A DNA stretch of 64,000 bases from Fodinisporobacter ferrooxydans (GTDB lineage Bacteria; Bacillota; Bacilli; Tumebacillales; MYW30-H2). The position numbers were made by a program, and so were the translations under genes. The first letter of the stretch is position 1; every line of letters starts with the position of its first letter. Shown here one piece after another: positions 1,346 through 33,828 of this stretch. The DNA lies in NCBI RefSeq assembly GCF_022818495.1, contig NZ_CP089291.1:797536-861535 (forward strand). The letters run 5' to 3'. The notes beneath the pieces are model-generated. The model worked only from the letters and a program-made list of their open reading frames with translations. It had not been told where the DNA came from and made no database searches.

Positions 1346-1365
1346 TCTATTCTCCATTGTAGTGT

Positions 1366-3695: not shown

Positions 3696-4799
3696 TTAAA
3701 CAGAACCTGCCTCCAATAGTTTCTCCACAACTGATAATGCTGCTCCCACTACCTGATCCATATTGTAATATCTGTATTGTGCTAATCTGCCAACAAACGT
3801 TACATTTTTTTCTTCTTCAGCAAGAGATTTATATTTTTTATATAAAAATTCATTTTCAGATCTTGGGACTGGATAATAGGGGTCCCCTTCACTTTGAGGA
3901 TATTCCCGAACAATTGAAGTGCCTGAATGAGTTTGACCGGTCAAATGCTTAAATTCTGTAATCCTTGTAAAATCAAAATCATTTGGATAATTCACTGTTC
4001 CTGTTGGTTGACACTGTTGAATTGAATCATCATGTTCATGTTCGAAACGCAAAGAACGATACGGGAGTTTACCGAAACGATAATTAAAATATGTATCTAT
4101 AGGACCTGTGTATATGATATGAGAAGCTTGAACATAATCCTTAATTGCCTCAAAATCCGTTTCAAGCTTAAGTTCAATATTTGGAAGATCAATCATTTTT
4201 TTAAACATCTTTGCATATCCGTGTAATGGCATAACCTGATAAGTATCAGTAAAATAACGATCATCCCGATTTGTTCGAACAGGTATTCGCGCTGTTACAC
4301 TCGCGCTTAATTCAGATGGATCCATCCCCCACTGTTTTCGTGTATACCCTCTATAAAATTTCTCATATAAATCCCTACCAACTGTATTTAATACTACATC
4401 TTCACTTGTTCTTATGAATTCACGAGGTTCACGAACCTTTTCATAAAAATCTTTGAGACTTTCTTCATCCAGATCCAAATGATACAAACGATTTATCGTG
4501 TCAAGATTAATAGGAATCGGTAATAATTGATCATCAACTTTAGCAAGTACACGATGTTCATAATGATGCCATTCCGTAAATTTTGAAAGATACTTAAAAA
4601 TTTGCTCTGAATTGGTATGAAAAATATGCGGGCCATATTTATGGATCAAAATCCCATATTGATCAAACTCATCAAACGCATTACCACCAATATGGGGTCT
4701 TTTGTCTATAAGGAGAACTTTCTTACCGGAACTTGCAAGCCGCTCTGCCGTGACACACCCTGCAAAGCCGGCTCCCACAATTAAATAGTCGTATACCAC
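3696..4799 (-). CDS. glf: UDP-galactopyranose mutase
   Basis: A 367-aa flavoenzyme that interconverts UDP-galactopyranose and UDP-galactofuranose. The N-terminus has the FAD-binding motif YLIVGAGFAGCVTAERLA, then IGGNAFDE and GPHIFHT, the substrate-binding YTRKQWG and the C-terminal VGRLAQYRYYNMDQ, all diagnostic of Glf. I prefer the GTG at 4799 (GAGGT seven bases upstream), which gives the usual start MVYDYLIVGAG. An in-frame ATG exists five codons earlier. It lies between a GT9-like gene and a GT2 gene, which suggests that galactofuranose enters the glycan made here. Confidence 0.94.
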   Translation of the reverse strand: MVYDYLIVGAGFAGCVTAERLASSGKKVLLIDKRPHIGGNAFDEFDQYGILIHKYGPHIFHTNSEQIFKYLSKFTEWHHYEHRVLAKVDDQLLPIPINLDTINRLYHLDLDEESLKDFYEKVREPREFIRTSEDVVLNTVGRDLYEKFYRGYTRKQWGMDPSELSASVTARIPVRTNRDDRYFTDTYQVMPLHGYAKMFKKMIDLPNIELKLETDFEAIKDYVQASHIIYTGPIDTYFNYRFGKLPYRSLRFEHEHDDSIQQCQPTGTVNYPNDFDFTRITEFKHLTGQTHSGTSIVREYPQSEGDPYYPVPRSENEFLYKKYKSLAEEEKNVTFVGRLAQYRYYNMDQVVGAALSVVEKLLEAGSV

Positions 4800-4839
4800 A
4801 CTAAAACCTCGCATTCATTACTCGATTACGATTGTTCCC

Positions 4840-6324: not shown

Positions 6325-7653
6325 TCAGATTGAGAGAATTGGAAAATAAATATTTTTAAACATCTTAAATATATTGTTATAATTTTCAAGTAAGATTCTA
6401 TCATCATTTGAACTTACAAAATGCAAATATTTATCGATATATACATCAACTTCATCAGACATTTCATTTCGAATAGCCGCAATATGCTCACACGTTTGAC
6501 AGAGTATATCAAATGAATCTAATTTTGCTTCTGTATACTCGACTATTTTAAAGTCCTCAAATTGGCATTTAAGAAACTCTCTTTCAAGATTTTTTGCAAT
6601 TAGGGTAATATCCACATCTTCATGGTTCTCCAGAATTGACTGAACGACATTTCTCAAAACCTGAATTTCATTACAATCTATAATACCTATATGTTTTTTA
6701 TTAAGAAAAACTGTTCTAAAATGATTCGGCAAAGTTTCCTTAACAAAAACTTTGTCTTCAGTAGCTTTCCTCCGTACAAGATTAAGCCCATCTCGTACAG
6801 CCAACAATATAGACTTCGCCACACTAAATTGCCCTTTATAATTGCAAAAAAAAGTAACCTTGTTTAAATCCTCAACTAAAACTGTATAAAAGCTTTCTAA
6901 TTGATCTTGACTGCAATATTTTTTAAAGAAATGGACTCGATTTCTCCACATAAAATAATTGCCGAACGTATCATTTCTGCCTTTTCCGCCGCCCTTGTGC
7001 CAAACCTTTGATTTAGCATAAGCCACAATTTTATATCCAGCTAACTGGATCCGATAACACCAATCGATGTCGTCCCAATACAGAAAATATTCCTCATCGA
7101 TTGTTCCGGCTTTCTTCACTGCACCCGCGCGGACAAGCATGGAACAAGCAGGTACATAATCACATTCCACAACTTCTGGAAGAGTTCCATCGTCTATATA
7201 TCTATAATAATTTAACTCCATATCAAATGTTTTCCAGTTAATTCTTGCTCCAATCTCCTGCACCAAATCAGGTTGATCCATTACATAGATCTTTGAACCA
7301 ACAACACCAACTTCTTCATGATTCTCTAAATATCGATAGAGTTCTTGTAAAGCCTCACTGTCTATAAACACATCATTATCCAAAAGATATAAATATTTGT
7401 AATCTTTCTTTAATGCCTCTTTAATTCCAGTATTGAAACCGCCGGAACCACCCTTATTTACCTCATTTTCAATTAAAATGACATCGTTTTTATATAATTC
7501 TCTGATTGCTTGTGCCGACCCGTCTGTTGAAGCGTTATCCACCACATACAGATCATAATTTGTAAACGTGGATTGTTTGACAGACTCAATACATTTTAAT
7601 ACGTAGTCTTTCTTATTCCAGTTGCATATAATAACTGCGACTTCTTTTCGCAT
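6325..7653 (-). CDS. GT2 glycosyltransferase with C-terminal extension
   Basis: A 442-aa GT2 enzyme. The first 280 residues are the GT-A domain (VAVIICNWNKKDYVLKCIES, VVDNASTDGS, YLLDNDVFI, and EYFLYWDDIDWCYRI, which supplies acidic residues near the acceptor site). The remaining 160 residues include IGIIDCNEIQVLRNVV and look like an additional small domain of unknown role. The frame is open 41 codons further upstream, but the ATG at 7653 has a perfect AGGGAGGTG seven bases upstream and starts exactly at the conserved fold, so the longer form is unlikely. It is 94 bp downstream of the polysaccharide deacetylase gene. Confidence 0.86.
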   Translation of the reverse strand: MRKEVAVIICNWNKKDYVLKCIESVKQSTFTNYDLYVVDNASTDGSAQAIRELYKNDVILIENEVNKGGSGGFNTGIKEALKKDYKYLYLLDNDVFIDSEALQELYRYLENHEEVGVVGSKIYVMDQPDLVQEIGARINWKTFDMELNYYRYIDDGTLPEVVECDYVPACSMLVRAGAVKKAGTIDEEYFLYWDDIDWCYRIQLAGYKIVAYAKSKVWHKGGGKGRNDTFGNYFMWRNRVHFFKKYCSQDQLESFYTVLVEDLNKVTFFCNYKGQFSVAKSILLAVRDGLNLVRRKATEDKVFVKETLPNHFRTVFLNKKHIGIIDCNEIQVLRNVVQSILENHEDVDITLIAKNLEREFLKCQFEDFKIVEYTEAKLDSFDILCQTCEHIAAIRNEMSDEVDVYIDKYLHFVSSNDDRILLENYNNIFKMFKNIYFPILSI

Positions 7654-7747
7654 TGTCAGACACCTCCCTATGCCAGCTTTCCCGAATTTCCTTATACTAT
7701 ATTTTTCAGCTATAAATGGCTGTTCAGTATTTATATCCGCTTGAACA

Positions 7748-8722
7748 CTAAAAGAATACCTTCCGTGTCCATACATTCATTTCCCCATTCCGGTCTTTCG
7801 GCAAGTCATTCGTGTCCAACCGGGGCAACGTTAAAGGATGATCCTTGTTTAAATCGGCAATCGCCACTAGCGTCGTCAAACCGACTTTACAACCCCGTTC
7901 CTTCAAAAGTTGCAGTAAAGATTCATTATAAGCGCCATATGGATAGCACATGACCCAATTATCCATGTCACAGCCGATTTGCCGCAGGAATTCCATGGAC
8001 AAATCGATTTCCTGCTTTTGCTCTTCACAACTTAATGTATCCAGCCAATAATGATCGTAGGAGTGACTTCCGATGAACATGCCATTACGTTTCATACACT
8101 GAATTTGGTCGAGATTCATATACAACTCTTTGGAAAACGTCAGTTCATCCTCATAAACAAACGTTTTGAACAACTCATCGGTAATGATATTGCGCAAGTT
8201 CTCCGGCAATCCCTTTTGCAACATCCGTTTAATGAAGACAACCTCTTTTGTATCAAAACGATTTGCTATTGCATAATTCTTTATGTATTCATTATCCGAT
8301 AACAGCTCATATTCCAGACGATAGGGTTCGATTTTTCTCAAAATTTGTTCTGCTAGTTTTGTTTTATCAAGAACAGAGGCTAAAATATAGTGGATTTTGT
8401 TTACATCCAAAACCTGATGTTCTGTCACAACTTTTGCAGGAGGAAAAAAGCTGCCCTGTATTTTTTTTTCATTTAATATGGGAAAGACATACTGGTAATG
8501 ATCCATATATCCGTCATCAAATGTTAATAACAATGCGTTGCTTGGCAACTTCATTTGCGGATCGGAAACTGCAGCAATCACTTCCTCCATTGTTACAACT
8601 GTATAATGTTTCAAAATGTATTCGATCTGCTCTTTAAACAGCTGCAATTCTAATCCTTTGATTTCCGGATAACGGGATTGCTTGAGTTCCCGCACGTAAT
8701 GATACATGACGATTGTTAACAT
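7748..8722 (-). CDS. polysaccharide deacetylase family protein
   Basis: A 324-aa NodB-homology (CE4) protein without a signal peptide. It starts MLTIVMYHYVRELKQS and carries the metal-site motifs TFDDGYMDHY and SHSYDHYWL (H-x3-H), then CYPYGAYNE. A helical insert of about 100 residues separates the first two motifs, as in other polysaccharide-operon members of this class. The ATG at 8722 is eight bases after GGAG; the longer frame would overlap the GNAT gene. Lacking a signal peptide, it probably acts on a cytoplasmic or lipid-linked sugar, removing an N-acetyl group from the glycan made here. Confidence 0.86.
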   Translation of the reverse strand: MLTIVMYHYVRELKQSRYPEIKGLELQLFKEQIEYILKHYTVVTMEEVIAAVSDPQMKLPSNALLLTFDDGYMDHYQYVFPILNEKKIQGSFFPPAKVVTEHQVLDVNKIHYILASVLDKTKLAEQILRKIEPYRLEYELLSDNEYIKNYAIANRFDTKEVVFIKRMLQKGLPENLRNIITDELFKTFVYEDELTFSKELYMNLDQIQCMKRNGMFIGSHSYDHYWLDTLSCEEQKQEIDLSMEFLRQIGCDMDNWVMCYPYGAYNESLLQLLKERGCKVGLTTLVAIADLNKDHPLTLPRLDTNDLPKDRNGEMNVWTRKVFF

Positions 8723-8744: not shown

Positions 8745-9935
8745 CTATCTCCAATCCTCCGCCAGCGGCCAGATATTTGGGCGATCCATGTCACAGTCGG
8801 ATTTTACAAAGTAAGTATCATTGGGATCGATCTGAATGGGTTCTTTACCAGATTGTTTAACTTTCCAGACAAAATTTATAGGGGTGACTCTATAGCGAAA
8901 GGGTTGAAATAAGCCGGCCAAACTGCAAATGTCAGGCAAATAATCAGCCTCTTGCTTGCGAAAACCTGCTTCAAATAGTGTAGATTCAAGTCGGCCCGTA
9001 CTGATTTGAAAATCTGCAGCCACGCATCCTTGATGTTTACCCCACATGCATACTTTACGAATTAAGTTTGTGAATAATGGATCTGTATGTCCATTCCAAA
9101 CATCCGTGCATTTTGGAATACACTCAATGATACGCAATACTTTGCGACCATCCATTTCGCTATTTTCGTTGTTTATGATTCGTTCAACACGAGCTACAAC
9201 AATCCCCTCTGCTTGTGGGTTGCCAAAAAAGAAATAACGATAACCGGGGCTGTTGAGGTATCTCCATTCCCAAAAATCCGCATCACGGTTTCTTGAAAAA
9301 ACTAATGAACGGCCAATACTTTCCCGGTACAAACTCTCAAGTTCGTGCAGGTTTATTTGCTCCGTTCGCGCTGCTATATGCAAATTTGCGTCATCCCTAC
9401 TTCCGAAAGTTTTTTCAATGGATCTTTGCCACCCTTGTATCGCTTCCGGTGCCACATCAGCAGAAAGCAGCTTCAAATACCCTTCCGGATCCAGTGGCAT
9501 CACATAACGATTAAGGCGTTCCAAATATGAGTACCCCATCTTCTTGTAGAGCGGGACAATCGCTGGATTGCAGCCAAGTGTCAGAGTTACCTCGTTATTT
9601 TTTTCTGTTTCACGTATTAACAGGATACCTAGACCACTATTTCGCAATTTTTCATCAATCACCCACATGGTCAGGGCTGCCCCATTTAATGCTTGTCCAT
9701 TCCAAATATATTGATTCGGTATAATTCCTAAAAAACCAACAATCTTGTCCTCTTTCAAAATCACAAGAGATTCTTGCTCTGATGCATGATTGATTCCCTG
9801 TTGTTGTTTTTGTGCTACCAGATATTGCCAGTCAAAAATTCTCTTGTCATACAATGCATGCGTTAGAGCCCAATTGGCTTGCAAAAACGAGATTACTTTG
9901 CCATAGTCCTCATTTGTATATTTTCGGATCAGCAT
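8745..9935 (-). CDS. GNAT family acyltransferase
   Basis: A 396-aa protein with a GNAT fold in the N-terminal part: IRKYTNEDYGKVISFL, then a strand IVGFLGIIPNQY and the acyl-CoA loop region RNSGLGILLIRE. The C-terminal half (from about residue 190) is a second, less clear GNAT-like or accessory domain. It overlaps the end of the VOC gene by 7 bp, so the two are translationally coupled. Placed just after an acyl carrier protein and FkbH-like gene, it is a candidate for transferring a carrier-bound acyl group to an amino sugar. That role is inference from context. Confidence 0.75.
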   Translation of the reverse strand: MLIRKYTNEDYGKVISFLQANWALTHALYDKRIFDWQYLVAQKQQQGINHASEQESLVILKEDKIVGFLGIIPNQYIWNGQALNGAALTMWVIDEKLRNSGLGILLIRETEKNNEVTLTLGCNPAIVPLYKKMGYSYLERLNRYVMPLDPEGYLKLLSADVAPEAIQGWQRSIEKTFGSRDDANLHIAARTEQINLHELESLYRESIGRSLVFSRNRDADFWEWRYLNSPGYRYFFFGNPQAEGIVVARVERIINNENSEMDGRKVLRIIECIPKCTDVWNGHTDPLFTNLIRKVCMWGKHQGCVAADFQISTGRLESTLFEAGFRKQEADYLPDICSLAGLFQPFRYRVTPINFVWKVKQSGKEPIQIDPNDTYFVKSDCDMDRPNIWPLAEDWR

Positions 9936-10336
9936 GAATCTTTACCACTTTCCAACAGTTCATACAGCCCCCAATTTGGATGGTACACCCAGGCAATTTT
10001 GCGCTGATTGAATGCTTCTGCAGGCACCGGTTTTTGAATCACTTTAAATGCGTTTTGTTCTGCTTGACGAAGCGCCTCGTCGAGATCATTCACTTCAAAA
10101 CAAATATGCATCAATTTATTCCCTTTTTTAATGCTGTTTCGAACAGGTGATTGCTCGCCAACCGGTTCAATGATCTCGACGCAACAGTCCCCCACCTGTA
10201 CAAAACCAACCTTTACTTTTTGTATCGGATCATGTGTCAAAAAAGTTGAGTCCAAATTGATCTTCGCGACATCTTCAATCCCTAAACCAATATGATGAAA
10301 CTTGGTATTTTCACCGAAAAAATGTAACTTCAGCAC
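9929..10336 (-). CDS. VOC (glyoxalase/bleomycin-resistance) family protein
   Basis: A 135-aa vicinal-oxygen-chelate fold protein. The N-terminus has FHHIGLGIEDVAK, then VQVGDCCVEIIEPVG and LMHICFEVNDLDEAL, closing with WGLYELLE. The pattern of His and Glu metal ligands (H, E, H, E) resembles methylmalonyl-CoA epimerase-type members. GTG start with AGAGGTG upstream. It sits between the ACP gene and the GNAT gene in the nonulosonate island, so a role in processing an acyl-thioester is possible but unproven. Confidence 0.75.
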   Translation of the reverse strand: MLKLHFFGENTKFHHIGLGIEDVAKINLDSTFLTHDPIQKVKVGFVQVGDCCVEIIEPVGEQSPVRNSIKKGNKLMHICFEVNDLDEALRQAEQNAFKVIQKPVPAEAFNQRKIAWVYHPNWGLYELLESGKDSC

Positions 10337-10378: not shown

Positions 10379-10612
10379 TCATCCTAGTTTTTCTCCAACA
10401 ATACTTACGATATCTTGTACTGACTGAATACCGGCAATTTCTTCTATTGAAAATGAACATCTCAGTTCCGCTTCAATTTCCATAATCAAATTTAAGTGTT
10501 CTAAAGAATCCCAACGCTCGAAATCTTCTTTTTTTGAATCTACTTTTACTGCGGAGACATCAACTGCCATCACTTTTGCGACAATTTCTTGAATTTCATG
10601 AAAATAGTTCAT
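10379..10612 (-). CDS. acyl carrier protein
   Basis: A 77-aa stand-alone carrier protein with the phosphopantetheine attachment motif WDSLEHLNLIMEIE (Ser36) in the usual helix-2 position. Its start codon lies inside the last codons of the FkbH-like gene (17-bp overlap) with AAGGAG seven bases upstream, so the two proteins are made together. FkbH-type HAD proteins load a three-carbon unit from 1,3-bisphosphoglycerate onto such carriers. Here the carrier probably holds a small acid (glyceryl or a derivative) for decorating a sugar rather than serving general fatty acid synthesis. Confidence 0.9.
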   Translation of the reverse strand: MNYFHEIQEIVAKVMAVDVSAVKVDSKKEDFERWDSLEHLNLIMEIEAELRCSFSIEEIAGIQSVQDIVSIVGEKLG

Positions 10613-12371
10613 CTATTTGCTCCTTGTTGGTGTTATCAATACAAGTGATGTGGGAAGGAAAACCAGCCAAATTCATATCCAAAATAAAATCAGTGGTGTT
10701 TTCCATTTTCCCTGATCTTTGGTTTTTATATTTATTTTGTATAAAATCGAAAAACGGTTTATTTTTCTTTGTTTCACGATATATCGCTTTTACCCGTTGA
10801 ACACCCGCATCGCTGAGGTGGCGATATACGAATTGCAACATAGCGTCTTCAACGCCTTTTCCCATTACACGGCAGCTCATCACAAAATCTATCATTTCCG
10901 CTTCTTTTACACAGACTGCTTTTGTGTCGATTTCATCGATTTCATCGATTTCAGTCATTTCATATACTATGGCACTGACTAAACCAGTAATGCCCTGTTC
11001 GCCAAATCTATCCTGCACATGAAACAGATATACGTGATTATTGGGATTTTGAGACCAAAGCCAAAATTCTTCTTGACTTACTCTTCTGGTTGCCAGATTA
11101 AACTGGTTTGTTTTGTTTAGTAACTGTACGGCTCTTGCCAGATTGTTTCGATTTAATTGTAAAACAGTCACTTGCAACTCTAATGATTGCAGCCATTCAA
11201 CGATGGAAGATGCTGTTGAGAGATTGAATTTCCTTGCAGTCTCCTGATGGTACATAGTCGTCCGTTCCAAGTCTTCATAAGTAATATCGATTGTTTCAAA
11301 ACAATCCAACGTCTGTATAAAAACCGGATATTGAACAAAATCCTTCGGCAATTCGGGAGTATATACTTCCGGCAAAGCTTGTCGAATCCTTTCCCGTTCC
11401 GTCGGATTATCATCCAGAAAGACAATGGATTGCAATCCCAAGTTAAGTTCATTTGCAATCCCTATTATGTTTTCTGCTTTATCCTTCCAGTTAATTCTCC
11501 AGGCAACAAAATCTTCTTTCTTTAACACCATTTCAGGATGCGTTTCTATCATCTCAAAGGCAATCGGCTCTTCATTCTTACTGCAAATAGCCAACAGGAT
11601 TCCACGGTTTTTCAGGGCTTTTAAACCCTTTTGAAACGCAACAAAACTTTCCCCAATGGGATCAATTCCCCCCAGCTTGATCCCTTCCATTCCGTCATCG
11701 CCGATAACGCCACCCCATAACGTATTATCCAAATCACAAACAATCAGCTTCTTCGCTTGTCCGATAACACCAGGCAAAATGGCTTTTATTTCCTTTGCAG
11801 CCACGACAAAAAAATCTCGTGAATATTGGATTTTCCCAAGTGCATACATTTTTGCGTCATAACTTTGTTTTTGCAGTGCGGTATACCAATATTGAGAATC
11901 CAGCATGACAATATGCGGATAATTAACAAAGTGCTCTGCCAAGCGCAAATTCATTTGCATGACCACATTGGTAATTCCGATATTGTGTTTCCAAGCTAAT
12001 GTCTGAACCCAGCGATAATGCGGCGGCAATGACCAGGAAACGACAAAAGTAAATTTGCTGCGTTTCGATGCCTCTATGACCATAGCAGCAAATTGATCGA
12101 CATCATTCATAATTTGCTTTCGATCAGCCGGTTCAAATTGAAGCAATGAATCAAAGGATGGACTGATTCGCTCCGGTATTGTCCAGATGACGGCAACATC
12201 AGGAGTGTTGCTCCAAACCGGATGTGAATGATCCATTAATATTTGGTTGACCTGATTATATGGTGCGGTTATAGCATCTACGCTGAGAGAAGCTGTTTCT
12301 TCTTTAAGAAACCGAACGATCGGATCAACAATCGTATCGGATATAATAAGTGCTGACAATGTTTTCAACAC
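10596..12371 (-). CDS. FkbH-like HAD-IIIC protein with GNAT-like C-terminus
   Basis: A protein of about 591 aa with three parts: an N-terminal SGNH-like region (roughly residues 20-190), a HAD phosphatase-like domain with the nucleophile motif LIVCDLDNTLWGGVIGDDG, CSKN and FLDDNPTERE, and a C-terminal GNAT-like region (FGEQGITGLVSAIV, SCRVMGKGVEDAML). This is the FkbH architecture, known for loading glyceryl onto an acyl carrier protein. The start is uncertain: the frame opens with a TTG at 12431 with no ribosome binding site; the GTG at 12371 has AAGGA upstream and matches where relatives begin. Note a tandem Glu-Ile-Asp micro-repeat near residue 495, made of 9-bp DNA repeats. Confidence 0.85.
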   Translation of the reverse strand: MLKTLSALIISDTIVDPIVRFLKEETASLSVDAITAPYNQVNQILMDHSHPVWSNTPDVAVIWTIPERISPSFDSLLQFEPADRKQIMNDVDQFAAMVIEASKRSKFTFVVSWSLPPHYRWVQTLAWKHNIGITNVVMQMNLRLAEHFVNYPHIVMLDSQYWYTALQKQSYDAKMYALGKIQYSRDFFVVAAKEIKAILPGVIGQAKKLIVCDLDNTLWGGVIGDDGMEGIKLGGIDPIGESFVAFQKGLKALKNRGILLAICSKNEEPIAFEMIETHPEMVLKKEDFVAWRINWKDKAENIIGIANELNLGLQSIVFLDDNPTERERIRQALPEVYTPELPKDFVQYPVFIQTLDCFETIDITYEDLERTTMYHQETARKFNLSTASSIVEWLQSLELQVTVLQLNRNNLARAVQLLNKTNQFNLATRRVSQEEFWLWSQNPNNHVYLFHVQDRFGEQGITGLVSAIVYEMTEIDEIDEIDTKAVCVKEAEMIDFVMSCRVMGKGVEDAMLQFVYRHLSDAGVQRVKAIYRETKKNKPFFDFIQNKYKNQRSGKMENTTDFILDMNLAGFPSHITCIDNTNKEQIDELFS

Positions 12372-12477
12372 TGCATACCATTCCTTATTCAACACGAATG
12401 TATAGATTTTAAAAATGATTGTAAAAACCAAACAATCGAAAGACTATTCATCTATTAAACTAAATAACCCAGCAATC

Positions 12478-13182
12478 TTATGAATAAATCAATTCATTGC
12501 GCAAGTAAAAAGCAGCAATATCCAAATCCCGTTTTGTATCAATATCGATACTCTCTTCGTTCGACATCACAAAAGGATACGCCGGTTGTGCAAAAAACGA
12601 TTTCTTCTCTAAAAACAGAGACGTGTTCATCAGATAAATAGCTCCATTTTGCCTGTATACCTTGGGCAATAATTGCCTTGGCTGGCTTAGCGTTGCTTCA
12701 TCCCGAAATGGCTGCAAAGATTGTTCGTCATCCAGGAAAAACATTTTATACGGGTGATGCTCCGCTTCCGTAACACTGATGGCACAAGCAGCATCATGAG
12801 CGAAAAATTGCTCAATGCATGACTCGATATGGCTTGCGTTTCTAAGCGGAGATGTCGGTTGCAGCAATACAAAATAATCCGGCAATTCACCTTCTTGTTG
12901 CAGAACATCGAGTACATGCTCCACCACATCTTGTGTCAACGATACATCAGTAGACAAAGAATCCGGACGGTCAATGACCTCGGCCCCCCATTGCAAACTA
13001 ATATTTTTTATTTGCTCATCCTCTGTACTTACAATACATCGGTGGATGAATGGACAATGCAATGCAGCTTCAATGCTATAGGAAATCAGCGGACGTCCGT
13101 TTAAATCGGTCAAATTCTTTTTGGGAATCCCTTTCGATCCGCCACGTGCAGGTATAATGGCAACAAGATCTGCGGGAATCAT
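12478..13182 (-). CDS. neuA: acylneuraminate (nonulosonate) cytidylyltransferase
   Basis: A 234-aa enzyme that activates a nonulosonic acid (sialic, legionaminic or pseudaminic type) with CTP. Motifs: LVAIIPARGGSKGIPKKN at the N-terminus, then VSTEDEQI, LLQPTSPLRN and YRQNGAIYL, with IDIDTKRDL near the end. The ATG at 13182 overlaps the neuC stop codon (ATGA), which argues for coupling and against the 16-codon longer frame. With NeuB and NeuC next door it completes the route to a CMP-nonulosonate, the donor expected for Maf transferases. Confidence 0.93.
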   Translation of the reverse strand: MIPADLVAIIPARGGSKGIPKKNLTDLNGRPLISYSIEAALHCPFIHRCIVSTEDEQIKNISLQWGAEVIDRPDSLSTDVSLTQDVVEHVLDVLQQEGELPDYFVLLQPTSPLRNASHIESCIEQFFAHDAACAISVTEAEHHPYKMFFLDDEQSLQPFRDEATLSQPRQLLPKVYRQNGAIYLMNTSLFLEKKSFFAQPAYPFVMSNEESIDIDTKRDLDIAAFYLRNELIYS

Positions 13183-14315
13183 CGTTTCAATACGAGGTCG
13201 CGAAATTGTTTCTGCTTTGGCGTTTCCCATAACCGCTCCTCCTTTAATGCTTGGATAAAAAGCTCTGTACTTTTCCCGGTTCCAAAACTGTAGCAGGGTT
13301 TGCTGGGTGGAGCATATTGTACGTTATGGATGGCATGTAAAATATCCTGAACATTCGTTTTAACATTGATGATGGATGAATACTGAAATCGATTGTTTTG
13401 TCTGGTTCCTATATTAATGGAAGGCACCCCGTAAACAGGAGCCTCCCGCATGCCTACACTGGAATTTCCGATAATAAATTCCGAATGTTTTAATAAAGTC
13501 AAAAAGTACTCAAAGCGAATGGATGGATAAATTTTGAATCGTGTATTGTATCTAATTTTTTCGTAAGCCTTGAATATGTCCGAACTGCCTTCATCATTGT
13601 TCGGATATATGACAATATAATTTTTGTGGCTTTTTACCAAGGCGGTTACTAACGTATTTGCATATTGTTCGATGTAATCTTTCTCTGTCGTTACAGGATG
13701 GAAAAGCACAACGCCATACTCGTCAAAGGGTATTTCATAATATTCTTTCACATCTTGTAAATTCGGCAGATCCGGGGAAAGCATCACATCGATGTCAGGT
13801 GAACCAATACTATAAATACTTTCCGGACTCTCCCCCAATTGCTCAAGGCGATCCGCTGCTTCTTTGTTTGCAACAAAATGAATATGCGACAGCTTGGATG
13901 CAGAGTGCCGAATTAATTCATCGATCGTCCCTGAAATTTCCCCGCCTTCAATATGTGCAACCAAAATATTGTTTAAAGAACCGACAATCGCGCCTGCGAG
14001 CGCCTCCACACGATCCCCATGCACAACGATTAAATCCGGTTTGTACTCATTCACAAATCTGGATAAACCGCCAATGGTATTCGCAAGTATCAAATCCATC
14101 GGTTCGCCGTGAATTTGGTTCATGAACGTATGAATATTGGAAAAACCCGCTTTGTATACTTCCTCAACCGTGTAGCCGTAGCGAGAAAGTGTATGCATGC
14201 CGGTCACAAAAATACAGCACTCATACTGATCATCATGATCAACTGCACGCATTAACGGTTTTAATTTTCCAAAATCCGCGCGTGTCCCTGTTAAAAACAG
14301 AATCTTTTTAAGCAT
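13179..14315 (-). CDS. neuC: UDP-N-acetylglucosamine 2-epimerase, hydrolysing
   Basis: A 378-aa GT-B-fold epimerase. It starts KILFLTGTRADFGKLKPL, has VHGDRVEALAGAI and HIEGGEISGTIDELIRHSASK, and near the C-terminus the GNSSVGMREAPVYGVPSINIG motif region, all typical of NeuC/LegG-type hydrolysing epimerases. It produces ManNAc or its diacetamido analogue plus UDP. Whether the true substrate is UDP-GlcNAc or a 2,4-diacetamido sugar cannot be told from the sequence. Eight-bp overlap with neuB; GGGAG lies seven bases before the ATG. Confidence 0.92.
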   Translation of the reverse strand: MLKKILFLTGTRADFGKLKPLMRAVDHDDQYECCIFVTGMHTLSRYGYTVEEVYKAGFSNIHTFMNQIHGEPMDLILANTIGGLSRFVNEYKPDLIVVHGDRVEALAGAIVGSLNNILVAHIEGGEISGTIDELIRHSASKLSHIHFVANKEAADRLEQLGESPESIYSIGSPDIDVMLSPDLPNLQDVKEYYEIPFDEYGVVLFHPVTTEKDYIEQYANTLVTALVKSHKNYIVIYPNNDEGSSDIFKAYEKIRYNTRFKIYPSIRFEYFLTLLKHSEFIIGNSSVGMREAPVYGVPSINIGTRQNNRFQYSSIINVKTNVQDILHAIHNVQYAPPSKPCYSFGTGKSTELFIQALKEERLWETPKQKQFRDLVLKR

Positions 14316-15342
14316 CTACTTGCTCCCACTTGATTTGTGCGTTTTTCTGAATGTTCGCTTTTACTTTTTTCCCTAATAATTGATTGAAAGATCCCGCTTT
14401 GATCTCACCCGTTCCCGGACGCTTTACCCATATATTTTCTTCCGAAAATGTCTCGCCTGCCTCAATATCCTTGATGGCGACAACACAGGCATAAGCAAAA
14501 TCAATCGTCGGCTGTTCTTCCGGCAATATTTCTTTCTTTCCGCCTAAAGATTGAAAGATAATTTGACTACCTTCTACCAATTCCTTTAAATCTATAGGAT
14601 CCATAGAAATAGAAATATCAGGGCCTGGCCAGCTTTTGTCTGAAGCAAAATGTCTTTCCAAGATTCTGGCGCCAAGAGCTACAGCTCCCAGACAAGGATA
14701 GTTGGATAAAGAATGATCAGAAAGACCGATCACCGCATCAGGAAAGGAATTGCGCAAATCCTGCAAGGCTCCCAAACGAACCTTATCATAGGGAGTCGGA
14801 TACATGCTTGTACAATGCAGAACCGCATAAGGGATATTATATTTTCTTACTATATCTACGGATCGTTGAATACTTGAAAGATGATTCATGCCGGTACTTA
14901 GAATCACCGGCTTGCCAAATTTGGCTATGTGTTCGATTAAGGGGTAGTTATTGCATTCTCCGGAACCAATTTTAAAAGCAAGAACGCCCATTCGCTCCAA
15001 ACGATCGGCAGCTGCTCTGGAAAACGGAGTGCTTAAAAAAATCATACCCTTCGATTCCGTATATAACTTTAGTTTTTCTTCTTCTTCAGCAGTTAACGCA
15101 CAACGGCTCATGATGTCCCAAATGGATTCTTTTGCATTTCCTGGAATCACATCATTGGGAATCATTTCATCCTCAATCACATGGGATTGAAATTTTACAC
15201 ATTCACAGCCTGCTGCAGCAGCATCATCAATCATTCGAATCGCTTTCTCAAAACTTCCCTCATGATTGATTCCTATTTCTGCAATTACAAACGGAGGGTG
15301 GTTGTCCCCTATTTTCCTGCCGGCAATCGTTAGCTCACTCAT
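14308..15342 (-). CDS. neuB: N-acetylneuraminate/legionaminate-type synthase
   Basis: A 344-aa enzyme that condenses phosphoenolpyruvate with a hexosamine to a nine-carbon nonulosonic acid. The TIM-barrel part has PPFVIAEIGINHEGSFEKA, VKFQSH, FKIGSGECNN and GLSDHSL; the last 60 residues are an antifreeze/SAF-like domain (CVVAIKDIEAGETFSEENIW, KRPGTGEI). The ATG at 15342 has GAGGAG nine bases upstream; the 32-codon longer frame would be lysine-rich and unlike the family. First gene of the neuB-neuC-neuA set. Family members make neuraminic, legionaminic or pseudaminic acid; the NeuC partner argues against pseudaminic acid, so legionaminic or neuraminic acid is more likely. Confidence 0.93.
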   Translation of the reverse strand: MSELTIAGRKIGDNHPPFVIAEIGINHEGSFEKAIRMIDDAAAAGCECVKFQSHVIEDEMIPNDVIPGNAKESIWDIMSRCALTAEEEEKLKLYTESKGMIFLSTPFSRAAADRLERMGVLAFKIGSGECNNYPLIEHIAKFGKPVILSTGMNHLSSIQRSVDIVRKYNIPYAVLHCTSMYPTPYDKVRLGALQDLRNSFPDAVIGLSDHSLSNYPCLGAVALGARILERHFASDKSWPGPDISISMDPIDLKELVEGSQIIFQSLGGKKEILPEEQPTIDFAYACVVAIKDIEAGETFSEENIWVKRPGTGEIKAGSFNQLLGKKVKANIQKNAQIKWEQVDA

Positions 15343-15604
15343 ACGAATCGGCTCCTCAAAATTCATAAATATTTCTGTTTTAAACTTCATGTATTTTAAA
15401 AAATTCCTATATAATCCTATGTAATTTTTAATTCGCATCTATAAAGTTGGGCGAAATTCTATGCAAGACTAGAATGATATTGCTTCAGGCTGTTGCGCGA
15501 CAATGTACACTCACTCTTAATGTAAGCCAAGTATATCAACAGTTCCATGCAAAGACCAGAATTCAAATTTTAACAGCAACCATCTTGGAAGAGATGGCAT
15601 TCTT
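15343..15604. other. gap upstream of neuB, weak promoter and hairpin
   Basis: About 260 bp separate neuB from the FliT-like gene. On the minus strand a weak sigma-A-like pair (TTGCAT, 17 bp, TATAGA) lies about 90 bp before the neuB start, and a 6-bp stem (15580-15597) follows the upstream gene. Both are too weak to call firmly. The gap is the likely break between the flagellar unit and the sugar-biosynthesis unit. Confidence 0.3.
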
Positions 15605-16093: not shown

Positions 16094-17422
16094 TCAGGAA
16101 AATAATGCATCGATTCTTTTTGCAATTTCATATGTTTCGGAGAACAGCTCGGAGAACAGCCGGGTTGACATTAATTCTTCCAACGATCGTTCAACGGCTC
16201 CTGCTATCCGCGCCCCATGTGAGGCATTATAAAAATGTATGTCTTTATGGTTTCTGATAAATCTTTCGATCCATCTGCGGAAGATATTCCAACTCCGGCT
16301 TGTTTGAATCAATCCCCCACCAACAGCCTCTGCAAATAATCCATACTGTGACGTAATTTCATTTGCCGCCGAATGAATCGTTCCCTGCGCGTGCGATCGT
16401 CCATTGATATATGCAAGATCCTGGCCCACCAAAACGATTGGGTTGCACCCCATAAGGTCTAGAATCGACAAAGCTGCTGTCGCCACGGAACCGCCGCTGG
16501 ATATCACAGGAAAACCGTATCGATCAGCCAATGAAACAAGTTCATCATCGCCTTCCGGATATGCCCAAATCACGGGTCCTTTATAATGCAAAGTAAGCTT
16601 TGGACAAGCAGTGGGAAATGCGATGAGCGGAATGTCGCACTCCTTATCGGGAAATTGTCCTAAAACTGCTTCATCTCCCTCAATCACAACAATCAAGTCA
16701 GGGTCAACCCCATTTTGCAATAAGGGGGTTAGGGCCGTACCAACACATACAATCAACGCCCGCCCTTTCAATTGGGAAAGCAATCGTACCGAATGATTCA
16801 GAGAAGGACCAGCAGCTACCAAAATGGCAGGCATATGCAAAAATTTATCCTTCGCGATTCCGATATTCGGATTTTCGAGAAGAACATCCGCCACCATTTT
16901 CCGATTGTTTTCCAAAAGCGCTCGCTTTTTTTCAATTGTATGGATCCGAATCCGATACTCTTCCAGCAATTCTTTTACTTGCTCCATCTGTTTCGGGATA
17001 ATTTTGACGGATGAAGGGTGGATAAAAAACGCCCCTTTCCCCTCTTCTGCCAATTCCAAATATTGAACAAAATTCGAAAGAAAATCTTCCATTTCCGAGT
17101 ATACATGCAATTCAAACCGTTCATCTTCCAGAAGCGGAGAAAGTAATCCTTTTTTCGTTACCGAATGAACCAAATCCCGATTGCATTCAAATACAATCAT
17201 TTTTTGGGTTGGATGTAGTTTCTGCAATAGAGCTTGCAAATGATATCCGCATCCCAAACCGTACACGACAACGACACCATTATCAGGCACTTTCCAATCC
17301 CGAATCAACAAAAGCGCCTCACGTTCGGGCTCATACCGGCTATGCAGATAGATGGTTTGACCGTCCTCCGCAGTCCAACATGCAGTAAGACAACCCGTTC
17401 TGGTCGGTACGATTTGGATCAT
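16094..17422 (-). CDS. motility-associated Maf-type glycosyltransferase (MptE-like)
   Basis: A 442-aa protein with the Maf/DUF115 core: GLGCGYHLQALLQ in the N-terminal part, MPAILVAAGPSLNHSVRLL, VVIEGDEA, SSGGSVATAALSILDLMGCN and PIVLVGQDLAY in the middle, then a helical C-terminus. Maf proteins transfer CMP-nonulosonic acids (legionaminic or pseudaminic) to flagellin Ser/Thr. The ATG overlaps the stop of the upstream gene (ATGA). It is the second maf paralogue of this window, separated from the first by fliS and a hypothetical gene. Its N-terminal part is shorter than in the 630-aa paralogue. Confidence 0.88.
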   Translation of the reverse strand: MIQIVPTRTGCLTACWTAEDGQTIYLHSRYEPEREALLLIRDWKVPDNGVVVVYGLGCGYHLQALLQKLHPTQKMIVFECNRDLVHSVTKKGLLSPLLEDERFELHVYSEMEDFLSNFVQYLELAEEGKGAFFIHPSSVKIIPKQMEQVKELLEEYRIRIHTIEKKRALLENNRKMVADVLLENPNIGIAKDKFLHMPAILVAAGPSLNHSVRLLSQLKGRALIVCVGTALTPLLQNGVDPDLIVVIEGDEAVLGQFPDKECDIPLIAFPTACPKLTLHYKGPVIWAYPEGDDELVSLADRYGFPVISSGGSVATAALSILDLMGCNPIVLVGQDLAYINGRSHAQGTIHSAANEITSQYGLFAEAVGGGLIQTSRSWNIFRRWIERFIRNHKDIHFYNASHGARIAGAVERSLEELMSTRLFSELFSETYEIAKRIDALFS

Positions 17423-17988
17423 AGGATATGTTCTTCTCTTTGCTGTTTCATATACTCGATCCATTCTTGCATGCAAGGAATCAATTCATATTCCAACAAA
17501 TCCGCCACTGAAATATAATCCTGATTCTTCCATGCCATTAAAATTTCATTGAGAATTTCACCGTACCTGACAAACAAGCTTTGCAAGGTTTGCGTAGGCA
17601 AAAAAACCAGGCTGTTTTGAAATACTTGCGTATTCCAATTTAGACCGCCTTCCGCTTGTAAATAGAGTTTGACTCCTTCCCCTTCTGCCCCGCTTCGAAA
17701 ATGCTCGGAAATTTGGGATATTCCCTCAATGAGTCTTGGCAGATATTCGATCGCGGACTGAAATGTATCCAACAATAATTTTTGTGGACTCATGGTGTCA
17801 ACTTCAACTAACTCGACTTCGTTATAAGGGATATTGGTATTCTCGGTAAGCAAATCGCCATTTACCAATACTTGATGGATCAGGCGGTTTTGCTTCTCTA
17901 TCGTTTTGCGAATCTCTTCCCACAGAAGGTCGCCGGTTGTATTTGATAATTCTTTATACTCTACTCCATCAATCGTTACTCGCATCAT
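17419..17988 (-). CDS. hypothetical protein of the flagellar maf-fliS cluster
   Basis: A 189-aa protein I do not recognise. The first 65 residues are predicted beta-rich (RVTIDGVEYKEL, QVLVNGDLL, NEVELVEVDTM), and the rest is helical with LLDTFQSAIEYLPRLIEGI and a C-terminal amphipathic tail. It starts ATGATG, with GGGAG just before the first ATG. It follows fliS by 8 bp and overlaps the second maf gene, so it is part of the same unit. A role as flagellin or FliD chaperone, or as a Maf partner, would fit the position. Confidence 0.65.
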   Translation of the reverse strand: MMRVTIDGVEYKELSNTTGDLLWEEIRKTIEKQNRLIHQVLVNGDLLTENTNIPYNEVELVEVDTMSPQKLLLDTFQSAIEYLPRLIEGISQISEHFRSGAEGEGVKLYLQAEGGLNWNTQVFQNSLVFLPTQTLQSLFVRYGEILNEILMAWKNQDYISVADLLEYELIPCMQEWIEYMKQQREEHIL

Positions 17989-17996
17989 GACACTCC

Positions 17997-18380
17997 CTAC
18001 TTCCCGTTCCTGGATTGCGAAGCAATCAAAGCAGCTTGATTGAATGTATCTCTCAACTCAGTCGAATATTGGATGACCAGATCAATCAATTCCGGATTTT
18101 TCTCCATATTCGCCTGAATGAGGCGACGGTACATGAAATCATATAACCCATACAAATGGTCGCATAATTCCGGAGCTGCTTTCTTATTTAATGTAGTCAT
18201 CAATTCAATCAGGATATTTTGTGCCCGCAAAAGATTTGCATGAGCAAGTTCATACTTTTTTTCCCTCATCATTTGCTGACTCCAATTGCTGAATTTGATC
18301 AATCCGTCGAATAACATGATCAGCAATTTGCTTGGGCTTGTCTGTACCGCACTTTGTTGATACGCCTGAATCCCTTTCAC
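17997..18380 (-). CDS. fliS: flagellin export chaperone FliS
   Basis: A 127-aa helical chaperone that binds flagellin C-termini before export. It has the FliS pattern IQAYQQSAVQTSPSKLLIML-FDGLIKF and the C-terminal LRDTFNQAA. The start is a GTG that overlaps the maf stop codon (GTGA), which indicates translational coupling. Having fliS between two maf genes suggests that glycosylation of chaperone-bound flagellin and export are coordinated. Fits length and position downstream of fliD. Confidence 0.92.
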   Translation of the reverse strand: MKGIQAYQQSAVQTSPSKLLIMLFDGLIKFSNWSQQMMREKKYELAHANLLRAQNILIELMTTLNKKAAPELCDHLYGLYDFMYRRLIQANMEKNPELIDLVIQYSTELRDTFNQAALIASQSRNGK

Positions 18381-20269
18381 TGTTTATCTTCACCCTTCAT
18401 TCCCACTCGTTCACAGAATTGTTTCAAATATTTATCAAGGATTGAGTGAGATTGTATACATACCTCAAGCAATACAGATGCAAATGCAAAAGCTTGACGA
18501 AAAGATATAAGATCTTTTTCCTTTTGCGACAAATTCTCAAGCTCCAAAGAACGCTCTGTATTGATATCAGACAAAATCTCCCGATACGACACTGCATCAA
18601 TGAACAGCAATGCAAACTGGTATTTTAATATGTTCCGCTGCGACTCATGAATCGTACTCATACATCGCTCTATCTGAATTCGATCGATACTGTTTTGTTC
18701 AATATTTGCAATGATTTCCTGAGCCGTATTCATGATGACCTGCAGTTCATGAATCATGTGTCTCATCTGCGCCATGGTTTGGCGGATTTTTCGAATGATC
18801 CGCCGGCTCATATTTAACGATAAAGGTTTGGAGTTTGCCATGGAAAATATCTTTTGAATAGGGATCTCTTCCTGGCAATAGCGATCCAACACATCATGCA
18901 AAGTCATGATTTCCAATCCTTCTCGCAACGCTCCTCCTTCCGTTGCATTTACATGCGTCCGATTCCCTGTACGGATTCTCTCTTCAAACCAGCGAAGGTA
19001 TATGAGATAGTCCTCGGTTGTATAAACGGGTTGCCCATATATATCTTGCAACGGAATCAACTTTCGGTGTTTTTTAATTTCCTCAATGTTGCTTTGATCA
19101 TGAACGGCCCCTTGTGCATAAGCCTGTCCATCCGGGTAAGACAAATCTTGACCAATGAAAATGATCGGATCACATCCCAGATGTTCAATAATTGAAAATG
19201 CCGTACAGGAAACAGATCCACCAGTAGGCATGTAGGTAGGATTCAAGGGTTCTCCCAAAATCTTTTCAAGCCAAGGAGTCAATTCACGAACAGAGTGCAG
19301 CATAAGCTTTTTGCCTGTATGATTGGCGGCGATACTTTCATGAGCTGTCATTTCCATTACCAAAGGAATCCCGGAATACTCCACACCTTCAAAATCATGA
19401 GCATTGCTCTCACTCCCGTCTACTGAAACCAGCAAATGAGGTACGATTCCCTGGCGATAGAGAGAACGGTACGCCGTATCTACACAGACAATCAACGCCC
19501 GATCGCCTACTTCTTTTAACAATTGGATATTTTTATTCAGGGAAGGGCCGGCAGACACCAGAATCGCCGGCTTGCCGGAAAAAGCATGTAACAATTCCTT
19601 CAAATCTGCCGACTGCAGGATATACGGCAAATTGCCTAGTATATTCCTTGCCCACTGGTCGCCAAACCTGACTCTTGTTCCCATATCTGCAAGTGCTCCA
19701 CGATAGTTGTTTACGAGCAATTTTTTCGCCATATCGTAATACTCATGTGCCAGTTTGCACTCTACAGGATGTTCAATGATACAAACCTTTGGAATATAAA
19801 ACACGTCTTGCTTAAATTCAAATTCCAGCCGATCACTGACGTTTTCCAAACTTTGCCCAAGAAACAACTCTAATCTTGAATCGGCAAGAGTTTTTTTCAA
19901 ATCTCTGCATGTTAAAATCATGTGAAATAATTCGATATCATGGGCAATTACGAGTACTTTGTTTTTTTCACTGACTCGGTTTAGAACTTCCTCTATGTGA
20001 TAGAATCCTCCGATACCGAAAACAATGTACAGGTCACAATCATCCTGCCACTGCTTTTCCACTTGTATCGCCGCTTCCTGAATCGGATTGTATTTACTTG
20101 TCAACGCCTGCCACTTCCCGTTTGTCAGCAAGGAAAAGGCAGTCTCGCCATTTTTCGCCGGTTCGGCTTTATAAGATTCAAAAGGTTTAAGCAGTGGGCC
20201 AAAAAGATTCAATTGTTCTTTATTTGATATATTCAATGCAAAGAGGTTTTCCTCCAGTAATTGTGTCAT
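18377..20269 (-). CDS. motility-associated Maf-type glycosyltransferase, long form
   Basis: A 630-aa Maf/DUF115 protein. After an N-terminal domain (LYIVFGIGGFYHIEEVLNRV) it shows the core KPAILVSAGPSLNKNIQLL, LLVSVDGSESN, PTGGSVSCTAFSIIEHLGCD and PIIFIGQDLSY-PDGQAYAQG. A helical C-terminal domain of about 150 residues follows, absent from the shorter paralogue. The ATG at 20269 has GGAGGG about seven bases upstream. It lies between fliD and fliS, which places it in the flagellar filament unit. The predicted donor is the CMP-nonulosonate made by neuB, neuC and neuA downstream. Confidence 0.9.
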   Translation of the reverse strand: MTQLLEENLFALNISNKEQLNLFGPLLKPFESYKAEPAKNGETAFSLLTNGKWQALTSKYNPIQEAAIQVEKQWQDDCDLYIVFGIGGFYHIEEVLNRVSEKNKVLVIAHDIELFHMILTCRDLKKTLADSRLELFLGQSLENVSDRLEFEFKQDVFYIPKVCIIEHPVECKLAHEYYDMAKKLLVNNYRGALADMGTRVRFGDQWARNILGNLPYILQSADLKELLHAFSGKPAILVSAGPSLNKNIQLLKEVGDRALIVCVDTAYRSLYRQGIVPHLLVSVDGSESNAHDFEGVEYSGIPLVMEMTAHESIAANHTGKKLMLHSVRELTPWLEKILGEPLNPTYMPTGGSVSCTAFSIIEHLGCDPIIFIGQDLSYPDGQAYAQGAVHDQSNIEEIKKHRKLIPLQDIYGQPVYTTEDYLIYLRWFEERIRTGNRTHVNATEGGALREGLEIMTLHDVLDRYCQEEIPIQKIFSMANSKPLSLNMSRRIIRKIRQTMAQMRHMIHELQVIMNTAQEIIANIEQNSIDRIQIERCMSTIHESQRNILKYQFALLFIDAVSYREILSDINTERSLELENLSQKEKDLISFRQAFAFASVLLEVCIQSHSILDKYLKQFCERVGMKGEDKQ

Positions 20270-20340
20270 TAAATGCCCTCCAGCGCCCCTCATTCTGAAT
20301 TTCCCCAAAAAAGAATACGTTTATCTTGATTCTCCTGATT

Positions 20341-22582: not shown

Positions 22583-23407
22583 TTAACCGAGCAGACGGAG
22601 AACCGCTTGAGGCGCTTGGTTTGCTTGCGCCAGCATCGCTGTGCCTGCTTGTACAAGAATTTGGTTCTTTGTGAAGTTCATCATTTCCGCAGCCATGTTT
22701 ACGTCTTTTACACGGGAGTTGGCGGCAGTCAGATTTTGTGAAGCGGTATTCAAGTTGTCAATGGAAAACTGGAGACGGTTTTGTACAGCTCCAAGATTCG
22801 CACTGTAACCGGAAACTGTGGAGATCATCCCATCCAAACTTGTGATTGCATTCTGCGCATTAGTCAATGTAGATACTGAAATTGAGTTGATCGCAGTACC
22901 GCCAATCGAACCTTTCACATTGTACATGGAAACAGTCATAGTTTGGCCATTATTGGCTCCAACCTGGAATGTAAGCGACGCATTCGAACCATCCAGCAAG
23001 TTCTTTTTGTTAAACTGAGTAGTTGAAGCGATTTGATTTAGTTCTGTTGCAAGCTGACTAATTTCTTTTTGTGTCTGGGCTCTGTCAGCAGTGGTGTTTG
23101 TATCACTCGACGCCTGTACTGCCAGCTCCCGCATCCGAGTCAAAATGTTGGTTACCTGAGTAAATGCACCCTGCGCTGTTTGAACCAAAGAAATAGCATC
23201 TTGCGCATTTCGTGCCGCTTGGTTCAAACCATTGACCTGATTCGACATTTTCTCGGAAATCGCCCATCCTGCAGCATCATCTGCGGCAGTATTGATCCGG
23301 TAACCGGAAGACAATTTTTCCATCGAATTTTGCTGTTGCAACTGATTAAAATTCAGGTTGTTCAGGGCGTTTAACCCCATCAGATTGTCTTGAATAATCA
23401 TCGACAT
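22583..23407 (-). CDS. hag: flagellin
   Basis: A 274-aa flagellin that polymerises into the filament. The N-terminal D0/D1 part has MEKLSSGYRINTAADDAAGW-AISEKM and the C-terminal part has ANSRVKDVNMAAEMMNFTKN with the end QAPQAVLRLLG. The central region is very short, so the variable D2/D3 domains are nearly absent, as in other Bacillales. The start at 23407 has AGGAGG nine bases upstream. The transcript appears to be sigma-D driven and CsrA repressed (see the promoter and the two CsrA sites). It is the expected target of the Maf glycosyltransferases downstream; the surface-exposed Ser/Thr residues of the middle region are candidate attachment sites. Confidence 0.96.
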   Translation of the reverse strand: MSMIIQDNLMGLNALNNLNFNQLQQQNSMEKLSSGYRINTAADDAAGWAISEKMSNQVNGLNQAARNAQDAISLVQTAQGAFTQVTNILTRMRELAVQASSDTNTTADRAQTQKEISQLATELNQIASTTQFNKKNLLDGSNASLTFQVGANNGQTMTVSMYNVKGSIGGTAINSISVSTLTNAQNAITSLDGMISTVSGYSANLGAVQNRLQFSIDNLNTASQNLTAANSRVKDVNMAAEMMNFTKNQILVQAGTAMLAQANQAPQAVLRLLG

Positions 23408-23411
23408 AGGT

Positions 23412-23423
23412 AACATCCTCCTT
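23412..23423 (-). promoter_or_regulatory. CsrA site 2 overlapping the flagellin ribosome binding site
   Basis: The minus strand reads AAGGAGGATGTT, in which the ribosome binding site AGGAGG is embedded in a GGATGT motif typical of CsrA binding. Binding here would block translation of flagellin. It lies about 20 bases downstream of the hairpin site, the arrangement known from the Bacillus subtilis hag leader. Confidence 0.65.
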
Positions 23424-23437
23424 GAATATGTATTCGC

Positions 23438-23451
23438 GCACATCCTTGTGC
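23438..23451 (-). promoter_or_regulatory. CsrA hairpin site 1 in flagellin leader
   Basis: The minus strand reads GCACAAGGATGTGC. It contains ACAAGGATGT, an exact match to the core of the CsrA consensus (RUACARGGAUGU), with AGGA displayed in the loop of a 5-bp GCACA/TGTGC stem. csrA and fliW are encoded directly upstream. Confidence 0.75.
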
Positions 23452-33806: not shown

Positions 33807-33828
33807 AATCTCACGCTCCATCAACAAT

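Follow-up and report, generated by a model that had tools for sequence, protein, structure and literature searches.

An FkbH-acyl carrier protein cassette among sialic acid and Maf genes of Fodinisporobacter ferrooxydans: a candidate route to an N-glyceryl flagellar nonulosonate

Gene content of the island

This study analyzed a 64,000-nt stretch of DNA from Fodinisporobacter ferrooxydans (GCF_022818495.1, contig NZ_CP089291.1, positions 797,536-861,535 of the forward strand), hereafter referred to as the window. From 20308 to 6325, the minus strand carries, in this order, maf, fliS, an unknown gene, a second maf, a FlgN-like gene, neuB, neuC, neuA, and the genes for an FkbH-like protein, an acyl carrier protein (ACP), a VOC protein, a GNAT protein, a NodB-type deacetylase, and a GT2 glycosyltransferase (Table 1). 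The five genes from FkbH to the deacetylase (PDA) constitute the cassette; all reading frames are open, and the genes overlap or are closely spaced, with overlaps of 17 bp between FkbH and ACP, 7 bp between VOC and GNAT, and, farther upstream, 8 bp between neuB and neuC. FliS/FliD-like ORFs and flagellin lie farther upstream; FliD and FliS were identified by comparison and position, and flagellin was identified by HMM. The Maf proteins carry the MptE-like/DUF115 domain, and their genes are located beside those for flagellin, FliD, and FliS. These results confirmed the arrangement described in the original prediction, in which an FkbH gene overlapping an ACP gene, with VOC and GNAT genes behind it, immediately follows neuB-neuC-neuA and a pair of maf genes; all of these are present on the minus strand with open frames. 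The interval assigned to the set, 10379-12371, was however too short, because the conserved cassette also includes the deacetylase gene (7748 to ~8722).

Table 1. Features of the flagellar and nonulosonate island (window coordinates)
Feature	Position	Strand	Evidence
FkbH-like glyceryl transferase/phosphatase	10596..12371	-	TIGR01686 261.7 bits (curated cut-off 146.65); PF21211 just below cut-off
Discrete acyl carrier protein	10379..10612	-	PF00550 24.1 bits (cut-off 20.8); PDB ACP matches
VOC, glyoxalase/methylmalonyl-CoA-epimerase-like	9929..10336	-	PF13669 57 bits
Two-domain GNAT, candidate glyceryl transferase	8745..9935	-	PF13508/PF00583 above cut-off
NodB-type polysaccharide deacetylase, candidate N-deacetylase	7748..8722 (approximate start)	-	PF01522 80.8 bits
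neuA, CMP-nonulosonate cytidylyltransferase	12478..13230	-	PF02348 96 bits
neuC, hydrolysing UDP-GlcNAc-type 2-epimerase	13179..14315	-	TIGR03568 417 bits (cut-off 236)
neuB, N-acetylneuraminate synthase, Neisseria meningitidis type	14308..15438	-	PF03102; 439 bits to N. meningitidis NeuB
Maf flagellin glycosyltransferase, short form	16094..17476	-	PF01973 122 bits and PF20157
Maf flagellin glycosyltransferase, long form	18377..20308	-	PF01973 147 bits
Flagellin, presumed acceptor	22583..23443	-	PF00669 155 bits at window 22982-23395 (contig 820517-820930)
GT2 glycosyltransferase abutting the cassette	6325..7776	-	PF00535 92 bits

The FkbH ORF extends from 10596 to 12431, with a likely GTG start at 12371 behind an AAGGA site, as read from the sequence. 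A genome profile search revealed that it is the sole FkbH gene of the 4.86-Mb genome. The protein comprises an FkbH_N-like N-terminus, an HAD-IIIC domain with DLDNTLWGG, and a C-terminal region with an invariant SCRV, and an alignment with two distant FkbH proteins showed D233, D235, and S519-C520-R521-V522 (ORF numbering) to be invariant. In polyketide pathways, the transfer of glyceryl from 1,3-bisphosphoglycerate onto an ACP has been established for the FkbH family (PMC3679948), and the window FkbH very likely loads the ACP in the same manner, a function well supported by its family. The phosphopantetheine serine of the ACP (Ser36, within a DSLEH site) is intact.

In the VOC protein, H15, E54, H77, and E126, the four metal ligands expected for the family, are kept, and the partner proteins of Brevibacillus and Aneurinibacillus have them unchanged; the protein matches the solved VOC structures 2qh0, 3hdp, and 3rmu. 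The GNAT protein contains a CoA-type RxxGxG motif. Its predicted model was poor (pLDDT 56), and Foldseek returned weak fold matches (TM ~0.25) to tandem-GNAT N-myristoyltransferases, a hint that the protein may consist of tandem GNAT domains. The deacetylase exhibits a TFDDG motif and an HxxxH pair (H244/H248), both invariant across five cassette members; its start was set by alignment (the ORF extends to 8794), and the enzyme has no evident signal peptide and is presumably cytoplasmic. Profile searches of the stretch from neuB down to 6325 identified no methyltransferase gene; the nearest one, for a C-methyltransferase, lies beyond the left edge of the window. ORF inspection and profile searches of the island revealed no gene for a ketosynthase, an acyl-CoA dehydrogenase, or an FkbI-like protein, and no full-length DUF4910 match was present anywhere in the genome.

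Several additional features of the region were observed. Leftward, the island (window 281-2139 and 3696-4814; L024 3937-7730) contains a CDP-glucose-type dehydratase, a nucleotidyltransferase, UDP-galactopyranose mutase, a split transketolase pair, and a C-methyltransferase, a set that suggests a branched-chain or modified CDP-sugar. Insertion elements flank the island: an IS110-type transposase gene is located at the left window edge (L024 8232-9530), and a DDE transposase ORF (24383-25573) lies between fliW and a DUF6470 gene within the flagellar cluster. A small gene of no assigned family adjoins fliS or maf in the window (17419-17988), in Brevibacillus porteri (L131 4223-4819), and in the Bacillota genome G153 (L135 13776-14132), with 24-26% identity; it perhaps encodes a flagellar chaperone or a Maf partner. 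A short ORF at 33264-33827 consists of near-identical 13-residue repeats (MQKYVDQSLAESEGR) and lacks a Pfam match.

Occurrence of the cassette in other genomes

A genome-collection scan yielded at least 588 FkbH pattern matches, and the best 80 loci formed our sample. The nearest relative of the window FkbH among the best 80 listed was that of B. porteri (~57% identical). In B. porteri (L025, L131), FkbH, ACP, VOC, GNAT, and deacetylase genes occur in the identical order, followed by a TylF-like methyltransferase gene, in a legionaminic acid/Maf island encoding Maf, LegB, LegC, LegG, LegI, PtmE, LegF, FliD, and FliS; no glycosyltransferase was recognised in the sequenced flanks of this cassette. 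The B. porteri island thus resembles the window in its five-gene order and its flagellar genes but differs in carrying legionaminic acid genes instead of Neu5Ac genes and in the extra methyltransferase. Across the 73 loci with a readable FkbH among the best 80, an ACP gene lay within 700 bp of FkbH in approximately 50 and a VOC gene within the same distance in 17, with just three VOC matches farther away. GNAT homologues were located within 650 bp of FkbH in all five loci possessing one. The recurrence of the five-gene order in Brevibacillus and the repeated proximity of ACP and VOC genes to FkbH show that this gene neighborhood is not due to chance.

Related sets with other gene complements were also identified. 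Aneurinibacillus terranovensis carries flagellin, a methyltransferase, an AAC(3)-type acyltransferase, DUF4910, FkbH, ACP, VOC, Maf, and pse genes; G153 has the order DUF4910-AAC(3)-ACP-FkbH-Maf-Maf-FliS; and a further Bacillota genome (G281) has DUF2920, ACP, FkbH, and methyltransferase genes inside a Pse/Maf island. An Omnitrophota locus (L042) combines pse genes with DUF4910, FkbH, ACP, and AAC(3), and a Desulfobacteraceae MAG (L035) has neuB-neuC-neuA-FkbH-GNAT-deacetylase in a capsule-like locus. At L034 and L084, FkbH-GNAT-deacetylase occurs without neuB or other nonulosonate genes; no ACP was found at the L034 and L035 loci. Full-length DUF4910 genes were located beside FkbH in G122, G153, and G534. 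Full sets mostly contain a single candidate deacylase, either of the NodB type or DUF4910, together with a single candidate acyltransferase, either a GNAT or AAC(3).

The genome search proposed with the original prediction, for FkbH-ACP together with neuB or maf, revealed such co-occurrence: FkbH-ACP is present in the maf islands of five Bacillota genomes, which have three nonulosonate pathways between them. The pair is therefore not always beside polyketide or siderophore genes, the outcome named as speaking against the prediction. In a sample of 398 Bacillota genomes, 14 had an FkbH above the cut-off and 97 had an MptE-like/Maf match. Both were present in four genomes besides that of the window and lay within 10 kb of each other in two of these four, for which random placement (window genome set aside) gives a probability of ~4e-4. 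FkbH within a maf island was rare in this sample (3 of the 97 maf genomes, window included), and the island type occurred in 1 of 26 Brevibacillus genomes. Its distribution among relatives is patchy, and genus-wide conservation in Brevibacillus was not found. These findings demonstrate that the FkbH-maf link is real yet not general, most Bacillota FkbH genes not being near maf.

In a quick FkbH tree, B. porteri grouped with the window (99), Aneurinibacillus and G153 fell into a second group, and G281 branched separately. This separation suggests that FkbH in a maf/nonulosonate context probably arose more than once.

Two other FkbH arrangements were observed. FkbH lies directly beside VOC, with or without ACP, outside flagellar loci in Acidobacteriota, Planctomycetota, Asgard archaea, and others (L043, L044, L045, L056, L058, L061, L062, L080, L088, L090); we know of no described role for this pair. 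At L029 (4850-6289) and L032 (3852-5282), an FkbH of the window's clade, with no ACP detected, lies beside an ORF that by eye resembles an MBOAT-like O-acyltransferase, an arrangement that hints at the transfer of glyceryl as an ester with no separate carrier protein.

The flagellar sugar and comparison with known systems

We compared the window NeuB with other synthases. In addition to its match to N. meningitidis NeuB, it scored 183 bits to SpsE and 148 bits to PseI, whereas the control, B. porteri LegI, scored 164 (NeuB), 192 (SpsE), and 174 (PseI). Against TIGR03569, the window NeuB reached 364 bits, below the equivalog cut-off of 400. Two solved hydrolysing epimerases with different substrates matched NeuC equally well, and NeuC therefore does not decide the sugar. 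Full-length DegT aminotransferase matches numbered only two in the genome, both within other sugar clusters. Maf enzymes of Clostridium botulinum and Geobacillus kaustophilus accept CMP-Neu5Ac (PMC11339370). Legionaminate was considered less likely as the window's sugar on the basis of the far closer match to N. meningitidis NeuB and the location of both DegT genes. The NeuB class and the placement of the DegT genes elsewhere suggest that the flagellar sugar is probably Neu5Ac, with CMP-Neu5Ac as the likely donor, and not legionaminate or pseudaminate.

The original prediction held that no FkbH-ACP system for flagellin sugars had been described. This statement requires correction, because an ACP and an FkbH-domain gene were already annotated in the flagellin locus of Campylobacter jejuni. 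Cj1299/AcpP2 is annotated as the ACP of the locus for O-linked glycosylation (PMC3749442), Cj1300 as a methyltransferase of the flagellin glycosylation locus (PMC2764114), and cj1302 as an FkbH-domain gene, with cj1301 annotated as an epimerase (PMC7099621). Cj1295 is required for di-O-methylglyceroyl-Pse, and Hitchen and colleagues proposed that it removes the C5 acetyl (PMC3068675). The glyceric acid is present as an amide, and 389-390 Da was reported for the modified residue (PMC3068675), in agreement with the mass of 390.16 that we computed for a di-O-methylglyceroyl-for-acetyl swap on Pse. A 2026 legend gives Cj1296-Cj1310 as not involved. Within the open-licence literature, we found no paper assigning the C. 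jejuni FkbH/ACP genes to di-O-methylglyceroyl-Pse synthesis, and only a passing mention joins FkbH with flagellin glycosylation.

The published annotations, on which the likeness is based, indicate that the C. jejuni locus shares with the window an ACP, an FkbH-domain gene, and a nonulosonate/Maf setting; it also has an epimerase-annotated gene, and the sugar made there is a nonulosonate that bears glyceric acid in amide linkage. By contrast, C. jejuni uses pseudaminic acid, the methyltransferase Cj1300, and Cj1295, which we take to belong to a DUF4910-type family, whereas the window has neuB-neuC-neuA, a NodB-type deacetylase, and a GNAT, with no pseudaminic acid pathway, no DUF4910, and no methyltransferase accompanying the cassette. 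FkbH/ACP genes in a flagellin-sugar locus are hence already on record; the window departs from the C. jejuni case in its Neu-type sugar, in its use of NodB and GNAT proteins, and in having no methyltransferase.

Other known systems resemble the window in part. The FkbH/OzmB-type enzymes of methoxymalonyl-ACP and tetronate pathways likewise combine an HAD-IIIC FkbH domain with a neighboring discrete ACP, but those pathways involve dehydrogenases, ketosynthases, and polyketide synthase, whereas in the window the companion genes encode a VOC protein, a GNAT, a deacetylase, and nonulosonate enzymes. The methoxymalonyl-ACP hallmark of acyl dehydrogenases and an O-methyltransferase by FkbH was absent from the island genes of the window. 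The viosamine islands of Pseudomonas aeruginosa and P. syringae and the tetronate of Vibrio cholerae O1 represent ACP-dependent acylation of flagellar or O-antigen amino sugars. These systems also place a discrete ACP for acyl supply in a surface-glycan island but draw the acyl group from ketoacyl-synthase, reductase, or ligase genes, whereas FkbH would be the source in the window.

Proposed pathway and alternative readings

We propose, at roughly even confidence, that the cassette gives the flagellar nonulosonate a different N-acyl group, the result being an N-glyceryl sialic acid carried on flagellin. By family, FkbH would take the glyceryl of 1,3-bisphosphoglycerate, strip the phosphate, and charge Ser36 of the ACP. 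The VOC protein may then act on the glyceryl thioester, perhaps by inverting its alpha carbon; this speculative step is the least certain, epimerisation being a guess from the resemblance to methylmalonyl-CoA epimerase. The deacetylase would remove the N-acetyl group of the NeuB-NeuC-NeuA sugar; the likely site is C5 of Neu5Ac itself, of its CMP form, or of a precursor. The GNAT would then place the ACP-bound glyceryl on the amine so exposed. By family, NeuA would activate the sugar and Maf would attach it to flagellin. This pathway would yield 5-N-glyceryl-neuraminic acid, which corresponds in the Neu series to the C. jejuni (2,3-di-O-methylglyceroyl)amino-pseudaminic acid and is expected to be unmethylated because the cassette has no methyltransferase. 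We infer the glyceryl transfer, its acceptor, and the order of the steps. In favor of the proposal, a deacylase and an acyltransferase are what an N-acetyl-to-N-glyceryl swap requires, a reaction that Hitchen and colleagues proposed for Cj1295 (PMC3068675), and the catalytic residues of FkbH, ACP, VOC, and deacetylase are intact. Against it, the GNAT has a CoA-type motif and a poor model, and the L034 and L035 loci suggest that the GNAT may not need an ACP of the window type. The central claim of the original prediction, attachment of a carrier-bound C3 acid to a flagellar nonulosonate, gained support from the FkbH-ACP genes in the five Bacillota maf islands, but the attachment to the nonulosonate itself is a step that we infer.

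With unchanged FkbH-ACP chemistry, glyceryl could be placed on another sugar of a longer flagellar or envelope glycan assembled by the sugar genes that come after the cassette, leaving the nonulosonate plain, a reading that we consider unlikely but of some weight. The window operon continues after the cassette, on the same strand, into GT2, glf, glucose-1-phosphate cytidylyltransferase-like, and CDP-glucose dehydratase-like genes, and the sets without neuB at L034 and L084 indicate that such enzymes also occur independently of nonulosonates; both points favor another sugar and weigh against the nonulosonate. In B. porteri, however, the cassette and its methyltransferase are part of a legionaminate/Maf island whose sequenced flanks contain no recognised glycosyltransferase, and at L035 neuB-neuC-neuA directly precedes FkbH-GNAT-deacetylase.

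Alternatively, glyceryl might be esterified to a hydroxyl of Neu5Ac with the N-acetyl group kept, the deacetylase having another target. Neu5Ac is already N-acetylated and O-acylation is common in bacterial sialic acids, which, together with the MBOAT-like ORF read by eye beside the FkbH at L029, would suit an ester. The deacetylase, superfluous for such a route, is nevertheless linked to the cassette in the window, L025, L034, L035, and L084, and in the C. jejuni precedent the glyceric acid is amide-linked (PMC3068675); we regard the ester as improbable.

Most characterised FkbH proteins act in small-molecule pathways (PMC3679948), and FkbH adjoins ketoacyl-synthase-type genes, as judged by eye, at L006 and L007, which belong to the window's class and order. 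An FkbH-ACP that builds an oxidised or extended unit of the methoxymalonyl-ACP or tetronate style, with its island position incidental, is nonetheless very improbable, considering that the island lacks the ketosynthase, acyl-CoA dehydrogenase, and FkbI-like genes, that the window FkbH clades with Brevibacillus and apart from L006/L007, and that linkage to maf and nonulosonate genes is repeated; the polyketide or small-molecule role was dropped because no genes support it. A decaying or silent cassette without present function would fit the patchy occurrence of the island-type FkbH among relatives but is highly unlikely with five open frames, catalytic residues kept, and genes overlapping or tightly spaced.

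Returning to the N-glyceryl nonulosonate, we tentatively extend it, with less than even confidence, to a wider picture in which FkbH-ACP-VOC with a deacylase/acyltransferase pair would be a widespread, swappable N-acetyl-to-N-glyceryl cassette that here yields 5-N-glyceryl-neuraminic acid on flagellin, like logic making the di-O-methylglyceroyl-Pse of Campylobacter. The presence of FkbH-ACP by maf/nonulosonate genes in unrelated Bacillota, with two deacylase/acyltransferase pairs, leads to a concrete pathway and to the prediction of exact flagellin masses. Related sets by flagellar sugar genes in several bacteria offer a testable answer to how decorated sugars are made. Under this pathway, a sialic acid with a variant N-acyl group is to be expected in bacteria, and the enzymes involved could be used to remodel sialic acids. 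If the proposal is true, 5-N-glyceryl-neuraminic acid would be a bacterial analogue of Neu5Gc, made without the animal hydroxylase.
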